A stretch of 17,895 nt of DNA from NCBI GenBank assembly GCA_013289445.1, contig JABCZZ010000024.1, positions 1 to 17,895 on the forward strand, written 5' to 3'. Positions 482 through 11,215 of the stretch are shown piece by piece. A model generated the notes under the pieces. It saw only the letters and a program-made list of their open reading frames with translations, searched no databases and had not been told where the DNA came from. This DNA is from Alphaproteobacteria bacterium. Lineage in GTDB: Bacteria > Pseudomonadota > Alphaproteobacteria > Rickettsiales > JABCZZ01. Each line of letters opens with the position of its first letter. The stretch's first letter is position 1. Position numbers and translations under genes: made by a program.

Positions 482-1150
482 TTGAAGAAACCCATGGCGA
501 ATGTCGTAAGTAACAGGAAAAAAGACGCTGCATCAGTGTTTGCCGCGGGGCTGACGGGTATGGCGGTGGCGCCGGGCGTCGTCTATACGGCCGAGAAACT
601 TTTACCATCGCAGATGAAGGGCCTTAAGAATTTCCTTGCCCGCAACGTGATCGAACCGCATCTGGAATTTTTTGGCCGTTTATCTAAAGGTCTCGATGAA
701 GCGCATGAACGCTATGATGACCGGCAGGAGAAACTGCAACTCGCGCGTGGTGAAAAAGTGCAACCCCGACCGCCGGAAAGCAGGCAGCAGCGGGCATACA
801 ACATTGCTGATAGTATTACGCGCACCGGACTGGCGCTGGGCAGTGATTTTGTCATCACGGCGGCGATGCAAGCACTATGTAACCGTGTTTTCAAACTCAA
901 TGTACATCCGACGAAGACGGCTTTCTGGGAATCAACATTGCAGCTGGGCGGCATTGCCCTGATGCCTACTTTATTCGCAGTGCCTTCGGAAAACATCCAT
1001 CACGGATTGTCGAAAATGCTCAATAAGGTATTAGGCATGAGCAAGAAATCCGCCGATGATATCGCGCTGCCCTTTACCTATGTGACCTTGCCAGGACTGG
1101 CCGCCACTGGGCTTATGATGGCATATGCCCCGCATAGCAACGGGCGTTGA
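482..1150 (+). CDS. Uncharacterised multi-segment membrane protein, 222 aa
   Basis: No family recognised. The frame is closed just upstream (TAG at 467-469), so the start is TTG 482 or, four codons later, ATG 494, which has GAAGAAA close in front of it. Four hydrophobic, Gly/Ala-rich segments lie near residues 17-35, 115-132, 150-168 and 198-215. Between the first two is a long charged, probably helical stretch (EAHERYDDRQEKLQLARGEK) ending in a proline patch, so a membrane-associated protein with a cytoplasmic loop is likely. Its style (small-residue hydrophobic segments alternating with charged helices, N-terminal basic cluster) resembles the four large unknown proteins at 3067-8317, but I could not make a convincing alignment. 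It ends 4 bases from the convergent reverse operon. Confidence 0.72.
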   Translation: MKKPMANVVSNRKKDAASVFAAGLTGMAVAPGVVYTAEKLLPSQMKGLKNFLARNVIEPHLEFFGRLSKGLDEAHERYDDRQEKLQLARGEKVQPRPPESRQQRAYNIADSITRTGLALGSDFVITAAMQALCNRVFKLNVHPTKTAFWESTLQLGGIALMPTLFAVPSENIHHGLSKMLNKVLGMSKKSADDIALPFTYVTLPGLAATGLMMAYAPHSNGR

Positions 1151-1154
1151 AAAC

Positions 1155-1568
1155 CTAGTTGTGCATATCGAGAGCGGATCCTTTGTAGGCATTCTCCAGC
1201 AGCCCGTCTTTACCCAGCACGAGAACGGTCGGACGTTTGTCACCGATGAGGTAGTAGATAAAATACACACGCCCCGAAGGTGGATCGGGGATGGTTTTCT
1301 GGGGTTCGCCGAGGGCAAGCTTCACCATGTCGCCGCTGCAGCCTATGAACACAGTGCCGTTGATGAGCACCTGCTTTTGTTCATAAGGGATCGTAAGTTG
1401 ATTGATGGCTGACAAACGTTGGTGTTCGATTTTTGCGGTAGGCGAGATATCGAGCACATCGACCGTGACGATAATATTCTTCAAGAGTTCAGGCTGGTAA
1501 TTCTGCAAATAGAAAAGTACCAGATAAACAATGATGCTCAACAATATGTAAGGCAACGCACGCAGCAT
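1155..1568 (-). CDS. Membrane-anchored protein with BamE/SmpA-like C-terminal segment, 137 aa
   Basis: Last gene of a reverse three-gene operon. ATG at 1568 has AGAAGG about 8 bases upstream. Residues 4-22 form a single hydrophobic helix without a lipobox or clear cleavage site, so the protein is probably anchored in the inner membrane with the rest in the periplasm. Residues 76-89 (GCSGDMVKLALGEP) and the following beta-rich VYFIYYLIGDKRPTVLVLGKDGLLE resemble the helix-turn 'GxxxxxVxxxLGxP' plus strands of SmpA/BamE-type folds. The match is only partial, so this is a structural suggestion and not a functional call. A 74-base gap separates it from the upstream gene. Confidence 0.75.
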   Translation of the reverse strand: MLRALPYILLSIIVYLVLFYLQNYQPELLKNIIVTVDVLDISPTAKIEHQRLSAINQLTIPYEQKQVLINGTVFIGCSGDMVKLALGEPQKTIPDPPSGRVYFIYYLIGDKRPTVLVLGKDGLLENAYKGSALDMHN

Positions 1569-1642: not shown

Positions 1643-2401
1643 TTAGCGCTTCGAATCTGCCTTTGATCCGGCGCTTTGCGGCGCTTTTGGCCCGTCCTTG
1701 CCTGCAAGGAGCGTACGCAACTGTTGCATATTTACATCGTAACTGGATTTGGACGCTGCGAGATATACCTTGTCGCAAGGAATGTCGTAATACATCTCTT
1801 TATACGAACCGCTCGCCGCGGTGAGTATATTGTCTTTGATGGTATCGTCCGCATGGACTCGTGTCAGTTCTTTGGCTAATCCGCTGCGGATCAACTCAAA
1901 ATCTCCGGCACTCGTCTTGCCGCATTTCTGCAGGTAGTAATATGTCACCAGCCATGCTTCATAGCGTTGTTTGAGCAAATCGATATAGACTTGTTCCTTG
2001 CTGTCAATCTCATTAAATTCAGGAATGTCGGAAAAGGGTAGCGGCGAAGAAATTCCGGCAATCGCAGCTTGTTTACGCGATTCTTTAGGCACCACCGGCA
2101 AAGAGACAGGTATGCTGGCGGTGGTTGAAAATATTTCCGGCGGAATCTGCAAGTACGCATGGCGCAAATCATTGGCCCCCAGCACGGTGACGAGTAACGC
2201 CACCGCCATCCACAGCTGAAGCTGCCGGCGGTACAATATGGCAAGCAGATGATGTTTATCCTGATGCGCATCCCCCAGCAACCGGCGGAAGTGATCGTGT
2301 TCACGCCACATGCCGAACATAATGATTCCCAGAAGAATCAGTGCAAACAACCAGACAAAGGCTGTCCAGAACAGTTCAGTCGACAAAATAGCATGTATCA
2401 T
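1643..2401 (-). CDS. Inner-membrane protein with periplasmic helical domain, 252 aa
   Basis: The start is placed at ATG 2401 because it forms a 4-base ATGA overlap with the stop of the upstream gene, a typical translational-coupling arrangement. A TTG nine codons further upstream (2428) is also open. Two hydrophobic helices (about residues 6-31 and 63-78 of the ATG form) are separated by a short charged loop rich in His, Asp and Arg (REHDHFRRLLGDAHQDKHH). After a Pro/Ser-rich linker comes a roughly 115-residue, mostly helical C-terminal domain. It contains two cysteines (in LQKCGK and IPCDKV) that could form a disulfide if the domain is periplasmic. The tail is Lys/Ser-rich. No family recognised. 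Middle gene of the reverse envelope operon. Confidence 0.75.
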   Translation of the reverse strand: MIHAILSTELFWTAFVWLFALILLGIIMFGMWREHDHFRRLLGDAHQDKHHLLAILYRRQLQLWMAVALLVTVLGANDLRHAYLQIPPEIFSTTASIPVSLPVVPKESRKQAAIAGISSPLPFSDIPEFNEIDSKEQVYIDLLKQRYEAWLVTYYYLQKCGKTSAGDFELIRSGLAKELTRVHADDTIKDNILTAASGSYKEMYYDIPCDKVYLAASKSSYDVNMQQLRTLLAGKDGPKAPQSAGSKADSKR

Positions 2402-2868
2402 GGCTGCGCTGGTGTGTTGGCGGAGCAATCGATTTGAAGTGTTTCACCCGCATGCGCGGAAATGTTGTGTATTACATCATAAGAAAAGCAGCGGTAATTT
2501 ACCGAGATATCCTTGTCGCACTCAGGTGCCGGATCGAAACCCACGCCTGCGGCAGTGACATTGAATTGGCAGGTATATCTTGTGTCACAGAGTGCCGTAA
2601 CCTGTGTAAGCGCATTATTCTCTTGCGCAGTGACCGGCTGCGTCTGACTGCTCAGCGCGTCTGTGGAATTGGGCGGATTGCTGGGGGTACAGTTTAGTCC
2701 GTAGCTTGCCGAACTAATATGTATGCTGTGCATCGGGTCATGGGAGACCTCGCCTGCGCCTGCGCTCCATACCGACAATTGGCCGAATAGCACGGCGAGA
2801 AGCAGCATAACGGCCACCATCAGGCCGACAATGACGGCTAAGACGCGCGGGTGAATGGATTCAGCCAT
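2398..2868 (-). CDS. Membrane-anchored SUEL/galactose-lectin-like domain protein, 156 aa
   Basis: First gene of the reverse operon, starting at ATG 2868. Residues 9-33 are one strong hydrophobic helix, and the rest should lie outside the cytoplasm. Residues 48-128 carry a layout typical of SUEL (rhamnose/galactose-binding lectin) modules: an SASYG-x-x-C opening, a C-x5-C pair (94, 100), an FDPAPECDKD segment and a closing NYRC (127). The total is six cysteines (60, 94, 100, 117, 127, 148), suggesting three disulfides. Pfam Gal_Lectin proteins bind sugars in animals, and similar modules occur in secreted bacterial proteins. Sugar binding here is inferred. A roughly 30-residue Ser/Pro/Gln insertion separates the first cysteine from the core, which is unusual for so small a module. 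No strong Shine-Dalgarno was seen. Confidence 0.75.
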   Translation of the reverse strand: MAESIHPRVLAVIVGLMVAVMLLLAVLFGQLSVWSAGAGEVSHDPMHSIHISSASYGLNCTPSNPPNSTDALSSQTQPVTAQENNALTQVTALCDTRYTCQFNVTAAGVGFDPAPECDKDISVNYRCFSYDVIHNISAHAGETLQIDCSANTPAQP

Positions 2869-3066
2869 AACATACTGTACTTTATTGGTATTTATATAGG
2901 TCTCTAAGGTAAGACGGTTCCGGCTTTTTGTAAAGCCATTGTTTTTGAATATGAAACTGCGGACATGAATTTATTGTTAATCACCGTCCAGAAGCCAAAA
3001 AAGGGGTAAAAGTTCATAATATTGTAACAATTGAATGATAGGGTGAAAGGTGAAGAATTGTGAACC
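2869..3066. promoter_or_regulatory. Divergent intergenic control region
   Basis: This 198-base AT-rich gap separates the reverse envelope operon from the forward four-gene block, so it should hold both promoters. On the forward side, TTCATA, a 17-base spacer and TGATAG (about 3014-3042) resemble weak -35/-10 boxes ahead of the AAGGTGAAG ribosome-binding site. The same stretch contains an odd palindrome, ATTGT-A-ACAAT (3021-3031), placed inside the putative spacer where a repressor could bind. On the reverse side a TATATAAAT-like -10 lies near 2890-2899. Promoter calls are by eye only. Confidence 0.35.
2922..2937. repeat. Short inverted repeat GGCTTT-N4-AAAGCC
   Basis: A perfect 6-bp inverted repeat with a TTGT loop lies between the divergent operons, upstream of the reverse envelope operon. 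It is not followed by a clean T-run on the side where a transcript would need one. An operator or leader hairpin is therefore as likely as a terminator. Confidence 0.3.
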
Positions 3067-4839
3067 TTGAACCAAAGCAAGACCATGGACCACGAAGACG
3101 ATGACGATGTTGCTTCCTCAACGGATCTTGGCAGTGCGCTGGGCAAGAAAGTTAATGTAGGCACGAATGAATATCGTGGCACCGTCACCATTCTCGGCAA
3201 GGAAATCTATGTCGGGCAGGAAGCGGCCAAATGGGCAAAGGGCGGCATTGCTCAGGCGCAGACCTGGTTAACCCGCTATGGCGCTGCGTGGATTCGCGAT
3301 AAAACGACGGCAGTAGCTACAGCGTTTAAAGCCACCGATCATCGCGCCGCGAAAATCGGTAATGCTGCGGAAATGATCTGGCGTTACGGCCTGCCGGCGG
3401 CAGACGTGGCGCTCGGCGTCAAAACAGCGATGCGCGACGGCTACAAACGTATGAGCGCGCTCAAGGACGAAGCGGCCGTGATACTTGCAGCCAACAACGA
3501 CATGAAGGTTGGCGTAGGCGGTGTGCTCTCGACAAACTTTAGAGCGCTTGCCAATGAGCGCGCATTGATTTTCAAGGAAGGCAAAAAGACCGTGCTTTCA
3601 AGCCTCACCTCGGTCATCCAGAATCTGCCCGGCATTCTTATCAACGTCTGGCAGCAGAAAGTGGAAATGATTCAAGACCCCAACCGGGTATTTGCCACCT
3701 TGCCTCCCGGTGCTTCGGCGGCTGAGCACGCGCGTGCCGAGCAGAAATTCAAGGAATTGTCCGCCCTCAAGACGGCCCCTGCGAGTGATGCCGCAGGAGG
3801 GGATCCCGTGTCAGGTGCGGTGGGCCGGATTTTCAAACCCAAGTCACTGGCGGATTACCAGAAGAACCTCGAATTTTCAAAATTCGCACCGTTTGTCGGC
3901 GGTTTGCTGGGCGGCGCTCTCAGCGGAAATATCCAGAAAGATGTTGGCACCACGGTAAACGCCTGGCGTCTCATCAAGCGGCTCGAAGTCACCATGAAGG
4001 AAGAGGAGCCCACCTCTGGCGGCGAGATTGAACAAAGTGTGCGCGAGATCTTCCAGCAGCACGCCAAAGATTGCGGCGTGAAACAGAAACTCGCCGGCAA
4101 CAAATTCACGCATATTGTCGAAGAAGTCTCTGAGGCCTTGGTCAATGAAGGCCTGCACCCGCAGGCACTTGTTGAATTGCTCGACGATCATAAAGTTATC
4201 ACGCTGGCTGCCGGCAAGGACGTCACCTACGGCAAGCCCATCGCAGTGAAAGAGGAAATTGCCAAGCTCATCAATAAATACACGGCCAAAGTCAGCCAGA
4301 AGGAATTTTACAAGGATGTTCCTTTTACCAAGGAAGATGCCGTCAAAGCTTTCAACGAAATAACCGATGAAGAGCGTCCGTTCTACACCATGCTGTTCCC
4401 GCCCGGCATACTCGAAGCTGCAGGTGCAATTAAAGCCAAAGTGGCCGAATGCCGTAAACAGGGCAGGGAGGCATTTACCGATGAACTGACCGGGATGATG
4501 CGCGAAATAATCAAAGCAGGCCGCGACGAGCTTGAAAAGCAGGGCGTGAAAAAAGAACTCATCGATGAACTCGAAGCGATCGAAGACGACTTCAACAATG
4601 CTATGCGCAGGGGACGTGCCGGCGAATATGTATCGCAGAATTTGGAAGATACTTCGGCGCTCGTGCGTAACATGGCACTCAGTGCCAAGGATAAAAGTGG
4701 TTTCTGGGCCGAGTACCTGCAGAAGCGCGCTGTTGCCAAGGATACCGAGATGCCGACCTCGCGCCGTGAAGTGACGCCGCGTTCGCTTAAGGAACAGGCA
4801 GAGCGTGACCCCGATGCAGGAGTAGGTATCAATAATTAA
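3067..4839 (+). CDS. Large uncharacterised protein, first gene of the four-gene block, 590 aa
   Basis: No family recognised. The start is TTG 3067, with AAGGTGAAG about 12 bases upstream; ATG 3085, six codons in, is the alternative. The N-terminus has a very acidic patch (residues 8-15, DHEDDDDV). Residues 45-200 are amphipathic and Ala/Trp-rich, and residues 273-288 are a Gly-rich hydrophobic stretch (FAPFVGGLLGGALSG) that is weak as a membrane helix. A helical domain at 320-410 contains EALVNEGLHPQALVELL, loosely like the 'G-L-x-P-e' motif of the next two proteins. Residues 450-520 are highly charged and could form coiled coil. No signal peptide. It looks like a scaffold or peripheral membrane protein, but function is unknown. 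The next gene starts 22 bases downstream. Confidence 0.82.
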   Translation: MNQSKTMDHEDDDDVASSTDLGSALGKKVNVGTNEYRGTVTILGKEIYVGQEAAKWAKGGIAQAQTWLTRYGAAWIRDKTTAVATAFKATDHRAAKIGNAAEMIWRYGLPAADVALGVKTAMRDGYKRMSALKDEAAVILAANNDMKVGVGGVLSTNFRALANERALIFKEGKKTVLSSLTSVIQNLPGILINVWQQKVEMIQDPNRVFATLPPGASAAEHARAEQKFKELSALKTAPASDAAGGDPVSGAVGRIFKPKSLADYQKNLEFSKFAPFVGGLLGGALSGNIQKDVGTTVNAWRLIKRLEVTMKEEEPTSGGEIEQSVREIFQQHAKDCGVKQKLAGNKFTHIVEEVSEALVNEGLHPQALVELLDDHKVITLAAGKDVTYGKPIAVKEEIAKLINKYTAKVSQKEFYKDVPFTKEDAVKAFNEITDEERPFYTMLFPPGILEAAGAIKAKVAECRKQGREAFTDELTGMMREIIKAGRDELEKQGVKKELIDELEAIEDDFNNAMRRGRAGEYVSQNLEDTSALVRNMALSAKDKSGFWAEYLQKRAVAKDTEMPTSRREVTPRSLKEQAERDPDAGVGINN

Positions 4840-4861
4840 ATAACGTTACGGAACAATTGCC

Positions 4862-5851
4862 ATGCCTACAGGCCAAACCACAGGCTATATCAACAAAGGG
4901 TCCGAAGAAAAGAACGGCGTCTTCGGCAGCGGTGGACCCAATTTTTCCGTTACCTCGATATTCACCCAATACAGTATGGCCAAATTCGCCGGCTATATTT
5001 TTCAGGCCATCTATTCGCCGGGCACCAAATGGGTGGAAAACCATGTGCTGGGCAATCGAGGCGCGCTGATTGCGAGCCCTAAGGCCAAGCAGTATTTCAA
5101 TCTCTTCGAAGCGGCGGTTTTTGCGTTGATTTCGACCACCAGCTTTTTCATGGAGAAAGCTAATTTCAAAAATAATATTTACGACGCCATGGCTGCCGAG
5201 AGAGGGCTCAATCCTGAAAATATTTCTGTTTTCAGTATGTACAAAAGTGACAATCCCTTCATCAAATCGTTGCGTGACCGCTTCACCCTGCAGAATGCAA
5301 CGCGTATTCCGGGTTCGCTGCTGTTTGCCAAGAACCTGACGGCGGGTGTCGTAGCGCTCTCTGCCAACTTCACGTTGGAACGTTCGGTATTCGTGGAAAA
5401 CAACGCCTATGATATCCTGCGCAACATGCTTTACGAAGTGCAGAAACTTAAAACCACGGGTACGTCGGATACCGAACGTGTGCGTGTGGGTCTTGAACGT
5501 GCAGTGCAACGCACGCTTAGCGACAACCATCGCCTCACGCTCAGCGAAGGACAGCTTCTGGCGGCCAAACCAGTATTCGATCGTCTGACACAAAATATCA
5601 TGTCCGGGCAATTTCACATGGCAGAAAGCATCTATATTCTGGGCGAACTGGCCAATCACCCGGAACATACCGAACGGCTGCTGTCAGAACTCGATAAAAT
5701 CGAGCAATTCGGCATTAAGGGCTTTGCCCGCCAGAAAGCAACCCTTACCGCAAGAAAAACCGGGATAAATGAGGTACTTGAACAGGGAAAACGGTCCTTT
5801 TCCGAGCGCAACCTGCGACCGGAAGGTAATTTACAGCCGGGAATGGCATAA
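4862..5851 (+). CDS. Uncharacterised membrane-associated protein, paralogue of the next gene, 329 aa
   Basis: ATG 4862, with a weak ACGGAA about 8 bases upstream. No named family. After a Gly-rich N-terminal tail, residues 34-56 are aromatic and amphipathic, and residues 81-96 (FEAAVFALISTTSFF) form one hydrophobic segment. Directly after it comes the motif GLNPENISVF...YKSDNPFIKSLR (115-138). The 401-aa neighbour has the same order: hydrophobic segment, then KPEEVGIRDF...FKSDNAIVHRTL. Further matched blocks are GSLLFAKNL against SASFFARFV, and a C-terminal helical block around QLLAAKPVF...YILGELANHPEHTERLL against QILFGRMAEL...YLLGHDLIQPQNMEQSL. I therefore infer an ancient tandem duplication. 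The protein ends in PGMA, close to the PGVA end of its neighbour. Confidence 0.82.
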   Translation: MPTGQTTGYINKGSEEKNGVFGSGGPNFSVTSIFTQYSMAKFAGYIFQAIYSPGTKWVENHVLGNRGALIASPKAKQYFNLFEAAVFALISTTSFFMEKANFKNNIYDAMAAERGLNPENISVFSMYKSDNPFIKSLRDRFTLQNATRIPGSLLFAKNLTAGVVALSANFTLERSVFVENNAYDILRNMLYEVQKLKTTGTSDTERVRVGLERAVQRTLSDNHRLTLSEGQLLAAKPVFDRLTQNIMSGQFHMAESIYILGELANHPEHTERLLSELDKIEQFGIKGFARQKATLTARKTGINEVLEQGKRSFSERNLRPEGNLQPGMA

Positions 5852-5947
5852 GACGATGGTTTGTAATCAAATCTTCATAAAGTTTTGCTGTAATAAGGTG
5901 TCTGCCAGGGGCACAATGGAACTAAGGCAGCGTAAGAGCAAATAAAC
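5852..5947 (+). promoter_or_regulatory. 96-base gap with possible internal promoter
   Basis: This is the largest gap inside the four-gene block. It is AT-rich and carries TTCATAAAGTTTTGCTGTAA (about 5873-5892). Another copy-like stretch, CATAAAAACTTTTGCGTTTT, occurs in the gap upstream of the small ORF near 8435. No terminator hairpin is visible, so read-through from the upstream genes is likely, with an extra promoter possible. The similarity between the two gaps is short and may be chance. Confidence 0.25.
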
Positions 5948-7153
5948 ATGGCTGAAGCGACTGATATTGAGCAAAGAAAGAACAGTGCAGCAACGGTGAA
6001 CACGCGTTCTGCTGACGCGGATGCTGTGCCTGTATCAGACAAATTTAATCACACCAAAGTTACCGGACGTTTTAATCAGTATACGTCGGGTTATTGGGCG
6101 CTCGCACTTCCTGCACTCTCCGCGCGTTATGTAGGACGTTACGCACTCGGTCTATGGAACGGGGCCAAAGAAACCGCCAAGGAAAATGAATTTACTAAAA
6201 AAGCCTATGCCGGATTGGTAGGCAGCTGGATGGGCTTCATCATGCTGCTCTATGCCAAGCGCACCTGGGTGGATATGAAGGCCATGTTCTCTGAAACACT
6301 TGCCTATGAGTTTAATAAAAAACCCGAAGAAGTCGGCATCCGTGATTTCTTCAAAAGTGACAATGCGATTGTTCATCGCACGCTGTGGAATTATATCAAA
6401 CGCAACGCCATGCGCGGCGGCGTGAGCGCAAGCTTTTTTGCCCGCTTTGTGCCCTGGAAGCGGGCTCAGAATCCCAATGCCGACTCGGTGGATCTGGGTG
6501 TGGGCGCGGCAGGTACCTATCTCGTCAGCGACGTAATTGCACGTAAGGAAACGTTCTTTGAACGGCTGCAGTCATTTGTCGATCAGAAGATCAATCACAC
6601 GGATCGCATAGGGGAAGTCATTACCGCGGCGGATCTGGTAAGCCTTTATTCGATTCATGCACGCGATAATGATCCCAAGAATGTCCGCACGGTGCGTATG
6701 GATTCACCCGCCTGGCGCAACGATCAGATTTTGTTTGGCCGCATGGCGGAACTTATGAACCAGACCTATGGCAACCAGTCGGCGACCGAGACTGCCAAAT
6801 TCACTATTCCCAAGCTGCTCTATCTGCTGGGCCACGATCTTATCCAGCCGCAGAACATGGAGCAGAGCCTGACCTATATTGAGATTGCCAATCGCTATGG
6901 CATGGACGCGGTCAAACAGGTGGCCAAGGCGAGCAAGGGCGGCATTGAATTGCAGTCTGCTGCGGCACAATATCCGGTCACCTTGACGCTGCCGCGCCAG
7001 GTTGCCCAGGAAACGGTTGCGCCGCCTGAAACCAAATTTACCGATCAACTGGGTGAACGCCGTAATATGATTAAGCCCGCTGCCCCCACGGGTAATTTTG
7101 CCGATAAAGCCCAGAAAAATGCGGACAACGTTGTTGTCCCGGGAGTGGCATAA
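5948..7153 (+). CDS. Uncharacterised membrane-associated protein, paralogue of the previous gene, 401 aa
   Basis: ATG 5948, with a weak AAGAG about 10 bases upstream. No named family. A polar N-terminal tail of about 35 residues precedes an aromatic amphipathic stretch (residues 45-70). A clear hydrophobic segment follows (88-103, AGLVGSWMGFIMLLYA), then the KPEEVGI...FKSDN motif (125-140) shared with the 329-aa protein. Residues 155-200 hold another small-residue hydrophobic patch. Residues 255-330 form a helical block also matched in the paralogue (YLLGHDLI...NMEQSL). The last 60 residues are Pro/Ala/Gln-rich and probably disordered, ending in PGVA. No enzymatic motif was found. Its stop lies 3 bases before the next start, so the two are almost certainly translated from one transcript. 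Confidence 0.82.
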   Translation: MAEATDIEQRKNSAATVNTRSADADAVPVSDKFNHTKVTGRFNQYTSGYWALALPALSARYVGRYALGLWNGAKETAKENEFTKKAYAGLVGSWMGFIMLLYAKRTWVDMKAMFSETLAYEFNKKPEEVGIRDFFKSDNAIVHRTLWNYIKRNAMRGGVSASFFARFVPWKRAQNPNADSVDLGVGAAGTYLVSDVIARKETFFERLQSFVDQKINHTDRIGEVITAADLVSLYSIHARDNDPKNVRTVRMDSPAWRNDQILFGRMAELMNQTYGNQSATETAKFTIPKLLYLLGHDLIQPQNMEQSLTYIEIANRYGMDAVKQVAKASKGGIELQSAAAQYPVTLTLPRQVAQETVAPPETKFTDQLGERRNMIKPAAPTGNFADKAQKNADNVVVPGVA

Positions 7154-7156
7154 CCC

Positions 7157-8317
7157 ATGCCCGCACCCAATAGTTTACAGCAAATGCAAAGAGAAATCAG
7201 AGTGGCCGCGCCTAAGCCATTGGTGCTTGAAGAAGGCTTTGCGCCGTTTCGCATTGCCAACAATCTGCTGGGCAGCATTTCCAATTTCGTCTTCATGGGG
7301 CCGCTTGCCATCAGCGCAATTACCGGCATCACCAAATGGTTTAATAAAGGAGACACCCCCGGCGCGCTTAAAAAGATAGGAGATGTTTCCGGCCTGCTTG
7401 AAAAGCCGCTTACAGAACTTCCGCAGGCGGCTGCCGATGCGCTTGGCAAGAATACTGCCACGAACGCGATTGCAACGGTCGGCAGCGGCGTTGGCGAATT
7501 TGCAAAGAAAACTCTAGGCAAGGGTCTGACGACCCGGCTTGCACAGAATTCATTAAGCACGCTGGCGGTGTATGGCACCATGGCAGCCAGTGAAGGCATT
7601 AATGCCGCTTTGGAAGTGGGACAGCAAACCCGCGGACTCATGCAGATGCAGTTTGAACTGACGGGTAAAATGCCTTCGGCCGCTGAAGTGGATCTTGGCA
7701 GCGATAAACTGCATCCTCTCGTTTTAGAAGTGCGTAAAGAACTCACTGGTGGCAAAGCGCTGCTGGGCAAAGGCCTTAAGATAGGCGGCACGATCACCAA
7801 TGCAGCGATGATGCTGATGGGAAAAGCCAGAGGCACAGGATGGAAGAGCTTTCTGCTGCCGATGGCGGTGAGCATGGGCTCCGGCATGGTTGCCAATGCC
7901 ATTACCTCAAGCAACACCGCGCTTGCCGCCCACCGTGAGCTCCATGCCCATTTTGCTCAGAACGGGCGTGCGCCGGAAAGCGCTTACGTGGCGCTCATCG
8001 GCGGTCTGGCCAAGAACAGCAATGAACAGATGATTCACCTGTTCGCCAAACAATGTGCCGACAAACAGCTGCGGCCAGATGCAGTGCTGAAGATGGTGGC
8101 CGAGACCAGTTTTTTCAAACAAAAAATGGAGCAGAATGCGCAGTCGCGCAAACACGGATTTGTCTTCAAGGCAATTGCCGGCGTTGGTTTATGTGCTCTT
8201 GCCGGTGCCGCTTATAAGAATCGCGCCGCGTTAGGCAGCTGGGTAAGCCGCGTTACCGGCAATGGTTCGGCTGCTCCTTCGTTCACCTCGGCACTTACTC
8301 CCGCCGTTGTTCGCTAG
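7157..8317 (+). CDS. Uncharacterised Ala/Gly-rich membrane protein, last gene of the four-gene block, 386 aa
   Basis: ATG 7157, with GGGAGTGG inside the end of the preceding gene as the likely ribosome-binding site. No named family. Hydrophobic segments lie at about 40-58, 135-150, 229-249 and 337-353; the middle ones are flanked by Gly/Ala/Lys-rich stretches (GSGVGEFAKKTLGKGLTTR). After the second segment, residues 169-195 (TGKMPSAAEVDLGSDKLHP then LVLEVRKEL) loosely follow the pattern of the KSDNP motif in the two preceding proteins: G-x-x-P, a variable stretch, S-D, P, then a basic helix. Homology is possible but weak. The protein ends in PAVVR; the 203-aa protein at 10604 ends in PPIVRS. 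Probably an inner-membrane component working with its neighbours; function unknown. Confidence 0.8.
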   Translation: MPAPNSLQQMQREIRVAAPKPLVLEEGFAPFRIANNLLGSISNFVFMGPLAISAITGITKWFNKGDTPGALKKIGDVSGLLEKPLTELPQAAADALGKNTATNAIATVGSGVGEFAKKTLGKGLTTRLAQNSLSTLAVYGTMAASEGINAALEVGQQTRGLMQMQFELTGKMPSAAEVDLGSDKLHPLVLEVRKELTGGKALLGKGLKIGGTITNAAMMLMGKARGTGWKSFLLPMAVSMGSGMVANAITSSNTALAAHRELHAHFAQNGRAPESAYVALIGGLAKNSNEQMIHLFAKQCADKQLRPDAVLKMVAETSFFKQKMEQNAQSRKHGFVFKAIAGVGLCALAGAAYKNRAALGSWVSRVTGNGSAAPSFTSALTPAVVR

Positions 8318-8434
8318 TATTGATCAACCTGCCACACGGATTAGTCAATGTACGACGATTCCCATAAAAACTTTTGCGTTTTACCGGTAAAGATGAAAAT
8401 ATGACCCGCAACTTGCCCTGGTACAAAGGGTAAT

Positions 8435-8644
8435 GTGCCTAAGAAAGAAGCGCGCATGAGTATGATATCAGGACTATTGAACGGTGTAGTAAGTTCGCTG
8501 ACTTTTACGAGTCCGCCGCTTTACCGTTATCCCTACCGAAATGCGCTTGAAGCGTTTCGTGGTGACTGGAAACATATAGGAAGCGATATTCTGGCGACGC
8601 AGGAAAGTTTAAGAGACATGCACGAGGAATCCACCGATGAGTAA
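8435..8644 (+). CDS. Small protein overlapping the DUF2335 gene, 62-69 aa
   Basis: Two starts are credible: GTG 8435 behind AAAGGG, or ATG 8456 behind AAGAAAGAAG at 5 bases; I slightly favour the latter (62 aa). The sequence begins with a mildly hydrophobic stretch (MISGLLNGVVSSLTFTSP), then LYRYPYRNALEAFRGDWKHIGSDI, then an acidic C-terminus. It looks like a small basic-to-acidic helical protein that could sit at the membrane surface. Its stop overlaps the next gene's start by 8 bases, which implies translational coupling with the DUF2335-type protein. I do not recognise it. Its small size keeps confidence moderate. Confidence 0.6.
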   Translation: MPKKEARMSMISGLLNGVVSSLTFTSPPLYRYPYRNALEAFRGDWKHIGSDILATQESLRDMHEESTDE

Positions 8645-9134
8645 CGGCGATCGCGACAATGGCGGCAAGCACCGCGACCGCTCCGGCAGCAACACAGGGC
8701 GCCGTTCTGAATTCATGCCCAGCCCCGAACTGCTCGAGGGCTATGATTATGTGGTGGAAGGCTCTGCGGCGCGTATCCTTGTCATGTTTGAATCCGAACA
8801 AAAGCATCGCCATACCTGGGAGAATGACGCACTTAAAACTCATACTTTCAGCACTATTCTCGGCCAGGTGCTGGGATTTTTCATCGCCGCCTCGGTTTTC
8901 GTCTCCGCCGCCATTATCGGCATTCATGGCAATAGCACCACGGCAGCATTCATCTGGGTGTTTGGCCTTGCCATCGTCGTCATGGCGGGACTTGTCTGGG
9001 TCTATGCCAAGAGCATGGGCCAGCGCCCGCTGTTTGGCCGCCCTAGCATGCGCACCCATTTCCGCCCTGAAAAAGACCTCGATAGCGAAGGCAAGGGCGT
9101 TTACGTCGATCGTCGGGGCCGCCCGCAGGAATAA
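8637..9134 (+). CDS. DUF2335-type two-helix membrane protein, 165 aa
   Basis: ATG 8637 has GAGGAA 7 bases upstream. After a polar tail of about 26 residues, the order fits DUF2335: PSPELLEGYDYV (28-39), EGSAARILVMFESEQKHRH (41-59), then two membrane helices near 74-97 and 101-123. The 'P-x-P-x-x-L-x-x-Y' motif, the small-residue turn before R-I, and the E-x-E/Q-x-x-H-R run just before the helices are the family hallmarks as I remember them. The function of the family is not established. Here the C-terminus extends about 40 residues beyond the second helix and is basic, with Arg/Gly/Pro. It overlaps the small upstream ORF and is probably co-expressed with it. Confidence 0.78.
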   Translation: MSNGDRDNGGKHRDRSGSNTGRRSEFMPSPELLEGYDYVVEGSAARILVMFESEQKHRHTWENDALKTHTFSTILGQVLGFFIAASVFVSAAIIGIHGNSTTAAFIWVFGLAIVVMAGLVWVYAKSMGQRPLFGRPSMRTHFRPEKDLDSEGKGVYVDRRGRPQE

Positions 9135-9166
9135 GCCTGCCGTATCTAGTATTGGCATTTCTAGGC

Positions 9167-9195
9167 AAAAAAAGAGGGAGGATTGCTCCTCCCTC
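9167..9195 (-). terminator. Rho-independent terminator of the reverse gene at 9213
   Basis: A perfect 9-bp stem (9174-9182 with 9187-9195) and a TTGC tetraloop are followed, reading the reverse strand, by seven T residues (9173-9167). It lies about 18 bases past the stop of the 87-aa membrane protein gene. It has no T-run on the forward side, so it serves the reverse strand. Confidence 0.88.
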
Positions 9196-9212
9196 CCTCG
9201 CAATAGCTGCGG

Positions 9213-9476
9213 TTAGTGGGTAGTGGTCGTAACCGTGGTCGCAATATGGTGCTTATAGAAGCCAAAGAGGCTGATAAGCAGCCAGACGACCAGCGTGTTG
9301 AAAATCGGCAATGTGCCGCCGGTATGCAGTGTAATCACCACAAACAGGGCGCCAAGCACGTTAAGCATGATGTAATGAGCGTCGGTGACCTTCATCTGGC
9401 CAATGACCAGCATGAAATAGCTCAAAAGAAGGAACACAATGCCGACATAGCCAAGCATGCCAAATATACTATCCAT
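9213..9476 (-). CDS. Small three-helix membrane protein, CBU_0592-like, 87 aa
   Basis: ATG 9476 has AAAGGA about 9 bases upstream, and a strong terminator follows the gene. The protein is almost entirely membrane: helices near residues 8-26, 35-52 and 57-74, with short loops and a Thr/His-rich tail (TTVTTTTH). The pattern of G-Y-x-G near the start, LLLSYFMLVIGQ, then 'MLNVLGALFVV' and a final W-x-x-I-S-L-F-G-F agrees with the small CBU_0592-like membrane proteins as I remember them. Their role is unknown. It is followed downstream only by the terminator and preceded by the lipoprotein gene on the same strand (52-base gap). Confidence 0.78.
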   Translation of the reverse strand: MDSIFGMLGYVGIVFLLLSYFMLVIGQMKVTDAHYIMLNVLGALFVVITLHTGGTLPIFNTLVVWLLISLFGFYKHHIATTVTTTTH

Positions 9477-9528
9477 AGACGTAGTCCTTTCAAAGGTTAA
9501 TGGTTAAGAAAGACGAACTGATCGCACG

Positions 9529-9939
9529 CTACTCAAAATGCCAGATAAACCGTAACCCCGCCGAAACCCCTTCGCTTCCGGTATAACCCAGATGTACAAA
9601 GGAGATGCTTTCTTCCGACCGCCACAGATTAAAGGTAACGAGATTATGTCTGTCTCTGTGGAAGTCGACGAGGATCGGGGCACTGTCTTCTGAGTATCGC
9701 ACCTGCACCGAGGCCAGATAGGTTTTATCCAGTTTGTCCATGGCGCTTTTGCGATCTTTGGGGCCTGCAGTCATGCTGCTATCCGTGTAATTCACGCCAT
9801 TATTATTGCCGATACGTGGTGGAGTCTTTACCAGGTTCACTTCCGGCAAGGAGCAGGAAGTGACAAGGAATAGAGTAACCAATGCCAGCAGGTTTTGGCG
9901 TGGAAGCAGTGTAAAATTCAGGCGCCCGTAGTGACGCAC
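9529..9939 (-). CDS. Putative lipoprotein, 136 aa
   Basis: The start is GTG 9939, supported by AGAGGT about 9 bases upstream. The N-terminus has basic residues, a hydrophobic core (LLALVTLFL) and a lipobox VTSC, so Cys29 would be lipid-modified after signal peptidase II cleavage. The mature part opens with a Pro/Asn-rich linker (VNLVKTPPRIGNNNG). The C-terminal half is beta-rich (SVQVRYSED, ILVDFHRDRHNLVTFNLW, ISFVHLGYTG) and ends in F-x-W-H-F-E. Alternating aromatic strands with a terminal aromatic residue are seen in outer-membrane beta proteins, but this is too short to be a full barrel. No family recognised. It lies upstream of, and on the same strand as, the 87-aa membrane protein. Confidence 0.72.
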   Translation of the reverse strand: MRHYGRLNFTLLPRQNLLALVTLFLVTSCSLPEVNLVKTPPRIGNNNGVNYTDSSMTAGPKDRKSAMDKLDKTYLASVQVRYSEDSAPILVDFHRDRHNLVTFNLWRSEESISFVHLGYTGSEGVSAGLRFIWHFE

Positions 9940-9958
9940 TTTCAGATACCTCTTTCCG

Positions 9959-9988
9959 TGAAGCGCGGGTGTTTTTTGCCCTGCTTCA
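9959..9988 (-). promoter_or_regulatory. Leader hairpin of the lipoprotein gene
   Basis: TGAAGC (9959-9964) is the exact reverse complement of GCTTCA (9983-9988), and inner CGGG/CCCTG bases add three more pairs. The loop is T-rich on the forward strand and A-rich on the reverse transcript. It lies 20-50 bases upstream of the GTG of the reverse lipoprotein gene, just before the Shine-Dalgarno, so it may affect transcript stability or translation. Confidence 0.35.
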
Positions 9989-10029
9989 TTGTCCTAATAC
10001 TAGCAGAAATCCTCATAAAAGTCATTAAA

Positions 10030-10069
10030 ATTGCTGCAATGCAGCATGATAATATTGCATTGCAGCAAT
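10030..10069. repeat. Perfect 14-bp inverted repeat with 12-base spacer
   Basis: The left arm (10030-10043, ATTGCTGCAATGCA) is exactly reverse-complementary to the right arm (10056-10069). The left arm and first spacer bases also contain a smaller palindrome, GCTGC-AAT-GCAGC (10033-10045), so the DNA could fold in two competing ways. No T-run follows on either strand, which argues against a terminator. A binding site for a dimeric regulator or a recombinase/transposon-type end is possible. Confidence 0.6.
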
Positions 10070-10242
10070 GCCGGATATCGGAACAAAAAACGCGTTTTTC
10101 GGCATGAAAAATCAGATGCGCAATCTATGCGTATGCGTACTGACTTTGCGCAGAGGCACAGAGATGAAAATAGGCTCATAGATAAGCCCATAGAATAGCA
10201 TCTAGCATCTTCGACAGTCAGCAATGCACCAAAAGACATCTG

Positions 10243-10369
10243 CCGATGCGGTAATAAGCAACCATCGGAAGGGTAAAAACGCAGGCAGCAGAATGCTGCT
10301 TAAGTCGATCTCGTTTAGTCTACAAATGCGTCCAAAAACTCTCTATACCCCTGCCGGTAGTTATCGGCA
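10243..10369. ncRNA. Cluster of three hairpins, possible structured RNA
   Basis: Three inverted repeats lie in line: CCGATG/CATCGG (10243-10248, 10263-10268), GCAGCA/TGCTGC with a GAA loop (10285-10290, 10294-10299), and TGCCGG/TCGGCA (10352-10357, 10364-10369, one G-T pair). The strand cannot be decided, and no promoter or terminator is clear. This is a weak call based only on the density of hairpins in a gene-free stretch. Confidence 0.2.
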
Positions 10370-10603
10370 TTACCACCACCAAGCAAATTCGTAATCCAGG
10401 CTAAAAATAAAACAAGCATCCCAAAAGGGTCAATACGCAATTATATTCAATTAATTAATATATTACATATGGATATAGTGATATGCCCGCTCCATTTAGG
10501 AGGTCAAAAATTCATCCACCTGTCACGGAACGTTAATAAAACCGCAACAATTATCTGGTAGAGTCAAAACCAAGGCTAAAAAGAGGCTTTAAGGAGATCG
10601 GCA

Positions 10604-11215
10604 ATGAATACAGCAGTTGAAAACACCCCGGCAGCAGCGGCCACAGCGGCCCAGCCCGGAGCCCCGGCAGCCAAAACACCGGCGGAGACCGTATCAATGG
10701 TATTTGACTCGCTTAAGCGAATTTCCAATATCGGAATATTGGGTGAATCGATGAGCACTAAAATCGGCAGCTTGATGGCCATTACCGAAACAGTAAATCC
10801 GCTCGTGCAAAATGCCTCCGGCAGAAAAGTAGAAGAACTGATTGCCGAGAATATTGTAAGCATTGTGAATAGCTACGGTCTCGGTGCCCGCAAAAATCCT
10901 TTTGAAGCACTGGATAAGGCAACCACCACCATATCGGAAGCAGGGCCCAGGGACGGGCAACAGAAAGTCGATTGGCGCGGGCTCAGCGAAGGTACGCAGG
11001 GTTTCTTCAAAGGCCTTGCTGCTAAAGTAGCAGCTCTGGCAGACCTTGGACCGGTACAGGATCTGCTTGGTAAAATGAAACAGGCAAAAGAAGTGGCAGC
11101 AGCTATGAGCGGATTTGGGGGCGCCACCAATGCCTCCGACCAATTCAGCCGCACGGCGGCGAACGTTCCTAAAGACGGTGTAGGCGCAAACAAACCGCCG
11201 ATTGTTCGCAGCTAA
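10604..11215 (+). CDS. Ala-rich uncharacterised protein, 203 aa
   Basis: ATG 10604 has an excellent AAGGAG 7 bases upstream. No family recognised. Residues 1-28 are almost all Ala/Pro/Thr (low complexity, probably disordered). Residues 29-115 are amphipathic helices (VSMVFDSLKRISNIGIL, VEELIAENIVSIVNSYGLG). A second helical block at 125-170 (GFFKGLAAKVAALADLG, DLLGKMKQAKEVAAAMSG) precedes a Gly/Asn/Pro tail ending in PPIVRS. No membrane helix or signal peptide. The short end resembles the PAVVR end of the 386-aa membrane protein, so it may belong to the same functional set; this is weak. It is convergent with hflX, 9 bases apart, with no visible terminator between. Confidence 0.8.
   Translation: MNTAVENTPAAAATAAQPGAPAAKTPAETVSMVFDSLKRISNIGILGESMSTKIGSLMAITETVNPLVQNASGRKVEELIAENIVSIVNSYGLGARKNPFEALDKATTTISEAGPRDGQQKVDWRGLSEGTQGFFKGLAAKVAALADLGPVQDLLGKMKQAKEVAAAMSGFGGATNASDQFSRTAANVPKDGVGANKPPIVRS

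Follow-up and report, generated by a model that had tools for sequence, protein, structure and literature searches.

Four genes of no known family, probable companions of a gene transfer agent cluster, in a Rickettsiales genome segment where particle genes are missing

What kind of system is encoded by a compact run of four genes that resemble nothing in the family databases? The question is raised by a stretch of 17,895 nucleotides from contig JABCZZ010000024.1 of an alphaproteobacterium (the window, by which we mean the whole stretch analysed), in which a first-pass annotation had noted four consecutive forward genes separated by 22, 96 and 3 bases and regarded them as a membrane-associated, multi-protein complex specific to the lineage. 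The block is present as described; the coordinates and gaps were verified and all four open reading frames (ORFs) are intact (family counts refer to an order-level sample of 174 genomes):

3067..4839, + strand: p1, 590 aa, distant relative of p2; family in 39/174 genomes
4862..5851, + strand: p2, 329 aa, paralogue of p3; also found after p1 in loci L066, L070 and L063
5948..7153, + strand: p3, 401 aa, all-helical model with a predicted local distance difference test score (pLDDT) of 78.7
7157..8317, + strand: p4, 386 aa, F11 family, with a weak link to p1-p3; family in 38/174 genomes

The start of p1 is probably the ATG at 3085, which gives 584 aa instead of 590. No terminator-like site was found on the + strand between the four genes, as had been claimed, and the statement that they match no known family is borne out: p1-p4 produced nothing above the cut-off (or E 0.01) in Pfam, NCBIfam and PADLOC, and no match in PHROGs. 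NCBIfam thermosome matches of p1 (E 5e-4, far under cut-off) and Pfam matches to glyoxalase and DUF4473 (E above 0.1) were dismissed as chance. Pairwise comparisons of the window genes with their homologues revealed the highest divergence at third codon positions, as purifying selection predicts, which indicates that p1-p4 are maintained genes.

In relatives, the head-tail cluster of a resident gene transfer agent (GTA) has p1, p4 and a number of small companion genes inserted among its own genes, and for this reason the earlier remark that the last three genes bear no phage hallmark is unsupported as it stands. In genome G081 (loci L080, L066 and L081), Pfam and PHROG matches and gene order identified in one cluster the gene set of the Rhodobacter capsulatus GTA (RcGTA): terminase (PF17289), portal (PF04860), protease (PF04586), capsid (PF05065), connector (PF05135), tail tube (PF06199), DUF2460, a DUF2163-type hub, an NlpC-like peptidase and GTA_TIM, arranged much as in RcGTA. 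G138 additionally has genes for head completion (PF05521) and tail completion (PF11367). Members of p1, p2, F11 and a further family, F12, lie between the tail tube or tail-completion gene and DUF2460 in G081 and in G138 (L070, L083), and G089 (L063) displays the same arrangement from p1 onward. At 15 of the 36 p1 loci examined (the two-flank clusters), all of them in relatives and none in the window, p1 is preceded by head or tube genes and followed by tail genes on its own strand. Of the 37 genomes carrying both p1 and DUF2460, 23 have them within 15 kb of each other. Altogether, we are rather confident that the block consists of related proteins p1-p3, with p4 going along, which in relatives belong to a GTA cluster and in the window are kept without the particle genes.

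Neither ORF profiles nor tblastn (E < 0.001) detected a GTA structural gene in the 17,895 bases of the window itself; capsid, portal, terminase, tail tube, DUF2460, DUF2163, peptidase and megatron are all missing, so that the locus does not qualify as an RcGTA-type cluster. One tblastn match labelled NlpC apparently comes from reading the DUF2335 gene out of frame. The companions, on the other hand, are found in the order and on the strands known from the GTA-bearing relatives, and the related locus L001 likewise keeps companions and lacks structural genes. They are:

482..1150, + strand: A482, 222 aa, hydrophobic segments; homologues in L001, L066, L070 and L087; in 8/15 two-flank clusters
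1155..1568, - strand: m1155, 137 aa, N-terminal hydrophobic segment; L001 homologue 52%; opposite-strand companion in 3/15 two-flank clusters
1643..2428, - strand: m1643, 261 aa, two hydrophobic segments; opposite-strand companion in 13/15 two-flank clusters, also in L001 and L102
2398..2868, - strand: m2398, 156 aa, hydrophobic N-terminus and SUEL (galactose/rhamnose-binding) lectin domain (PF02140, E 1.6e-7)
8456..8644, + strand: companion ORF of 62 aa that contains the motif YRYPYRN and overlaps the beginning of the DUF2335 gene; absent from the ORF list
8637..9134, + strand: DUF2335 membrane protein (PF10097; E 1.5e-12, 47.7 bits against a cut-off of 25); in 14/15 two-flank clusters

The lectin-domain protein m2398 is a regular opposite-strand resident of GTA clusters (12/15 two-flank clusters), with no homologue detected in L001; the 62-aa ORF is matched by tblastn in L001, in L103 and at many loci of GTA clusters. 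The linkage of DUF2335 to GTA clusters was found in this analysis, and a literature search on DUF2335 did not retrieve it. More generally, the titles and abstract beginnings searched gave no description of these companion genes. An apparent DUF2335-peptidase fusion in L106 was rejected, its ORF appearing to be an out-of-frame read.

A locus of this kind could be a decaying GTA relic, from which the structural genes were lost first and the companions would follow, and the missing structural genes as well as apparently decayed phage-tail genes elsewhere in genome G001 (L108) agree with such a history. However, the companion frames are open, in order and diverge most at third codon positions, and, apart from the NlpC-labelled match, tblastn at E below 0.001 revealed no structural remnant in the window. 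Furthermore, the loss is selective: in L066 the stretch from capsid to GTA_TIM comprises 20 genes, and a window homologue exists for 0/8 phage-family genes as opposed to 9/12 others, a pattern whose probability by chance is C(12,9)/C(20,9) = 0.0013. We thus consider decay very improbable. A second case is provided by G022, in which p1, p4 and two p3 genes occupy separate loci and the profiles PF13547, PF05065 and PF09343 identified no capsid, DUF2460 or GTA_TIM match. Retention in the window, L001 and G022 suggests that the companion set has a function independent of the particle.

The relationships among the proteins were analyzed by profile-profile comparison with hhalign, using final alignments with no sequence common to two families; part of the F12 and p4 rows had been picked by gene position. 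The link between p2 and p3 is robust (probability 99.5, E 6e-23; 99.2-99.4 with halved alignments), and p1 is connected to p2 with a probability of 94.5 (E 8e-8), which falls to 53-72 upon halving. For F12 the scores vary with the alignment: 94.1 to p3 and 77.8 to p1 with 24 sequences, 80.1 and 87.4, respectively, with 23 sequences (the intermediate L067 removed), and 11.1 and 36.0 with 14 sequences, while p2-F12 scored 63.9. The p4 and F11 profiles, which share a gene position, matched over 186 columns (73.6, E 3e-5), and in a round with small alignments p2-p3 and p4-F11 were the only links seen. As controls we used reversed profiles, five column shuffles per pair, halved alignments and five unrelated cluster families; reversed and shuffled profiles scored at most 0.3, and the unrelated families at most 1.4. 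These profiles show p1, p2 and p3 to be related members of one undescribed family, tied together through p2, with F12 and p4 as possible further members. A 348-aa protein encoded in L067 (7125-8171, G052) matches both F12 (98.5) and p3 (80.6) and is perhaps an F12/p3 intermediate.

The structural evidence concerns mainly p3, the one protein for which the all-helical nature of the family is predicted. With a mean pLDDT of 78.7, and values above 90 in much of the core, its model is entirely helical and includes one helix of 42 residues, and comparison with solved structures found no convincing match, although a fold beyond those listed may still correspond to it. The p3 profile found nothing among PDB sequences up to E 1, and the sole PDB match of p1, at E 0.96, was attributed to chance. 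The p4 model is poor (pLDDT 43, from three sequences) and contains a helix of 43 residues, comparable to that of p3. As regards the claimed membrane association, hydropathy supports it weakly for p2 and p4 and gives no support for p1 and p3.

The distribution of the families was followed from p3, since p1 alone retrieved nothing as a query against genome contigs and a second scan was carried out with the p3 alignment. It found seven loci, all within one order, two of them titled Rickettsiales; in the database p3 has 45 further homologues, of which one bears the name Rickettsiales bacterium. We take the order to be Rickettsiales because of the record titles and because many of its genomes encode five ATP/ADP translocases, as Rickettsia does. 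Among the 174 genomes sampled, the p3 profile A1 matches 42; six of these matches are weak (E 5e-17 to 2e-6) and concern five p2-type genes and one fragment. The p2 profile, with cross-matches to p3, also matches 42. In agreement with the suggested lineage specificity, a class-level search carried out with p1 found it in 3/385 genomes, each of which also belongs to the sample of the order. A protein search with p4 returned only p4 itself among the best 7998 candidates scored, a blank that means little because the existing L001 homologue also went unmatched. Joint occurrence was observed in 33 genomes for p1 and p2/p3, in 32 for p1 and p4 and in 31 for p2/p3 and p4 (Fisher p 1e-18 to 1e-22, values that are indicative only because shared ancestry and the incompleteness of metagenome-assembled genomes (MAGs) are still in the counts).

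The idea of one multi-protein system fares differently at two levels. The families share genomes, and even where the genes are scattered, as in G003, G006 and G034, they tend to be found in one genome; but the full four-gene order was seen only in the window and L001, and elsewhere p1, p3 and p4 often lie apart. The refuting outcome named in the first-pass annotation, each gene occurring alone, is borne out for position, although the scattered genes still tend to share genomes. Among the p3 loci examined, 25/28 have no p1 or p4 nearby, and 22 of these 25 no other labelled cluster gene. One stand-alone p3, in L003 (G003, 2904-11194), lies ~4 kb from genes related to those for uracil-DNA glycosylase and ETF-QO on the flanks of the window block, a hint at the site where the p1-p4 block was assembled. 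The co-occurrence, together with the lack of phage genes in the window, could also be explained by a lineage-specific scaffold or membrane-remodelling operon unconnected with GTAs, much as first proposed. This explanation is disfavoured by synteny, as p1 and p4 are repeatedly placed inside GTA clusters, and we find it hardly credible.

None of the 63 translocase-positive genomes is among the 39 positives for p1, the 42 for p2/p3 or the 38 for p4. PMC9352585 reports that the ATP/ADP translocase was undetected in Mitibacteraceae and Athabascaceae, two basal families, and the absence of p1-p4 from translocase-bearing genomes fits that report. In a 2019 survey (PMC6821227), the Rickettsiales row of a table gives the values 70, 18, 0, 24, 0, 0. 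There is a parallel in the same order of bacteria, where partial GTA clusters are kept, as here. A 2022 study by George et al. reportedly described GTA head clusters in Rickettsiales and Holosporaceae endosymbionts that retained the head genes and lost the tail genes. In contrast to such tail-less clusters, in our case neither head nor tail genes are left, the companions are kept, and the family is absent from the translocase-bearing genomes sampled.

Are the proteins then parts of the particle? It is conceivable that p1, p4 and F12 belong to the virion, as a tape measure, as internal proteins ejected to form a channel for DNA delivery, or as both, in which case the window copies would have been co-opted or would serve particles encoded elsewhere in the genome. 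In the two-flank clusters the genes sit between tail tube and DUF2460, the place occupied by the tape measure g11 in RcGTA. They are tightly spaced and co-directional (median gaps: p4-F12 3 bases, 15 loci; F12-DUF2460 76.5 bases, 16 loci), and F12 has weak PHROG tape-measure matches (E 1e-4 to 0.04). With tape-measure and ejection proteins they share this position in relatives and, judging from the p3 model, a helical character; g11 is described, in PMC7296036, as a trimer with a 113-residue helix. In L090, L115 and L126, p4 is followed by DUF2460 and no F12 was seen, therefore the tape measure there must be another gene. On the other side, p1, p3 and p4 are without a family match, and 7 p4/F11, 7 p1 and 26 p3 members revealed no tail or tape-measure family among the PHROGs (the sole match, of one p1 member, was to sigma-K, E 0.008). 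Neither p1 nor p3 was matched in 50,697 phage records, and a pattern search of IMG/VR for p3 (one pattern, 46 stretches) found no relative. The genes are also kept in G022, where a GTA was undetected, and are often encoded far from the GTA, and the solitary p3 loci count on the same side. Gene position and spacing keep the virion explanation alive, and we regard it as rather unlikely.

With our confidence evenly balanced, we favour a host-side helper complex that was recruited into a GTA and in the window has outlived it. The p1-p4 proteins would act on the producing cell's own side and not mainly as a part of the virion; we prefer this because they are kept without the particle, their genes often lie in other places, and the records searched yielded no phage homologue of p1 or p3. 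How the helper complex might work can be proposed only tentatively, at somewhat less than even confidence. It could be anchored to the envelope via the membrane companions m1643, m2398 (with its lectin domain), A482 and DUF2335, would be co-produced with the particle through the common tail operon, and would probably aid late steps, either particle assembly at the envelope or passage through it, while a second cellular role would account for its retention after the particle was lost. Retention by a lineage that produces no particles could also reflect a recipient-side or self-protection system, which would aid DNA uptake from, or survival of, neighbours' particles and from which a non-producer still gains. 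The proteins match neither defence models nor any known family, and we deem such a system improbable.

Several points weigh against the helper complex. The tube-to-DUF2460 position and the co-directional spacing would be equally expected of tape-measure or ejected virion proteins. Interaction, membrane location and co-expression of p1-p4 are putative, and p1 and p3 look soluble. The apparently decayed tail genes of L108 are related to tail genes in L109 (G043), a separate and different phage-like head-tail cluster; both G001 and G043 are MAGs of unstated completeness, and GTA genes may lie elsewhere in the genome of which the 17,895 bases of the window were examined. Finally, a wider superfamily is fragile: the direct p1-p3 comparison scored 19.2 (at most 1.0 once the alignments were halved), and p4 scored 27.6 against p3 (12.5 with smaller alignments), 39.3 against F12 (7.2), 0.9 against p1 and 0.6 against p2. 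The superfamily claim is limited to p1, p2 and p3, since the F12 links depend on alignment depth and the p1-p3 match fails upon halving; the confidence placed in the several readings is unchanged, because the link to the GTA is independent of it.

The tail-operon slot may be variable, with unrelated large proteins in other lineages of the order. Among 10 p1-negative loci fetched, the slot was readable in three, and these GTA clusters (L133, 7526-9619; L135, 9156-18431; L140, 5157-8836) have other large proteins, of up to 1430 aa, between the tail tube and the distal-tail genes. Twenty large proteins from p1-negative loci revealed no homology to the p1-p4 families (best probability 1.2). A 5656-aa ORF directly adjoins the GTA_TIM megatron gene in L134 (G030). 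In L061 (G099) p2, and in L053 (G034) p3, is the neighbour of such a megatron gene, in surroundings unlike the usual cluster.

We speculate, more doubtfully still than for the mechanism, that the three to five related helical proteins could represent a new type of cellular machinery in Rickettsiales that lack the translocase and probably live freely, recruited into the variable slot and outliving the particle at least twice (in the window clade and in G022). If this is true, the GTA clusters of this order would be platforms that carry cell-encoded systems, beyond being phage remnants. GTAs are usually described as a fixed, phage-derived set of structural genes; here the clusters of one order add about ten conserved genes of unknown function, a new protein family among them, and one lineage keeps these extras where the particle genes are gone, so that nature has separated the two parts. 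Coordinates are now given for uncharacterised proteins from Rickettsiales members without the ATP/ADP translocase, and both the host contribution to a GTA and the reason why Rickettsiales keep GTA-linked genes become testable.
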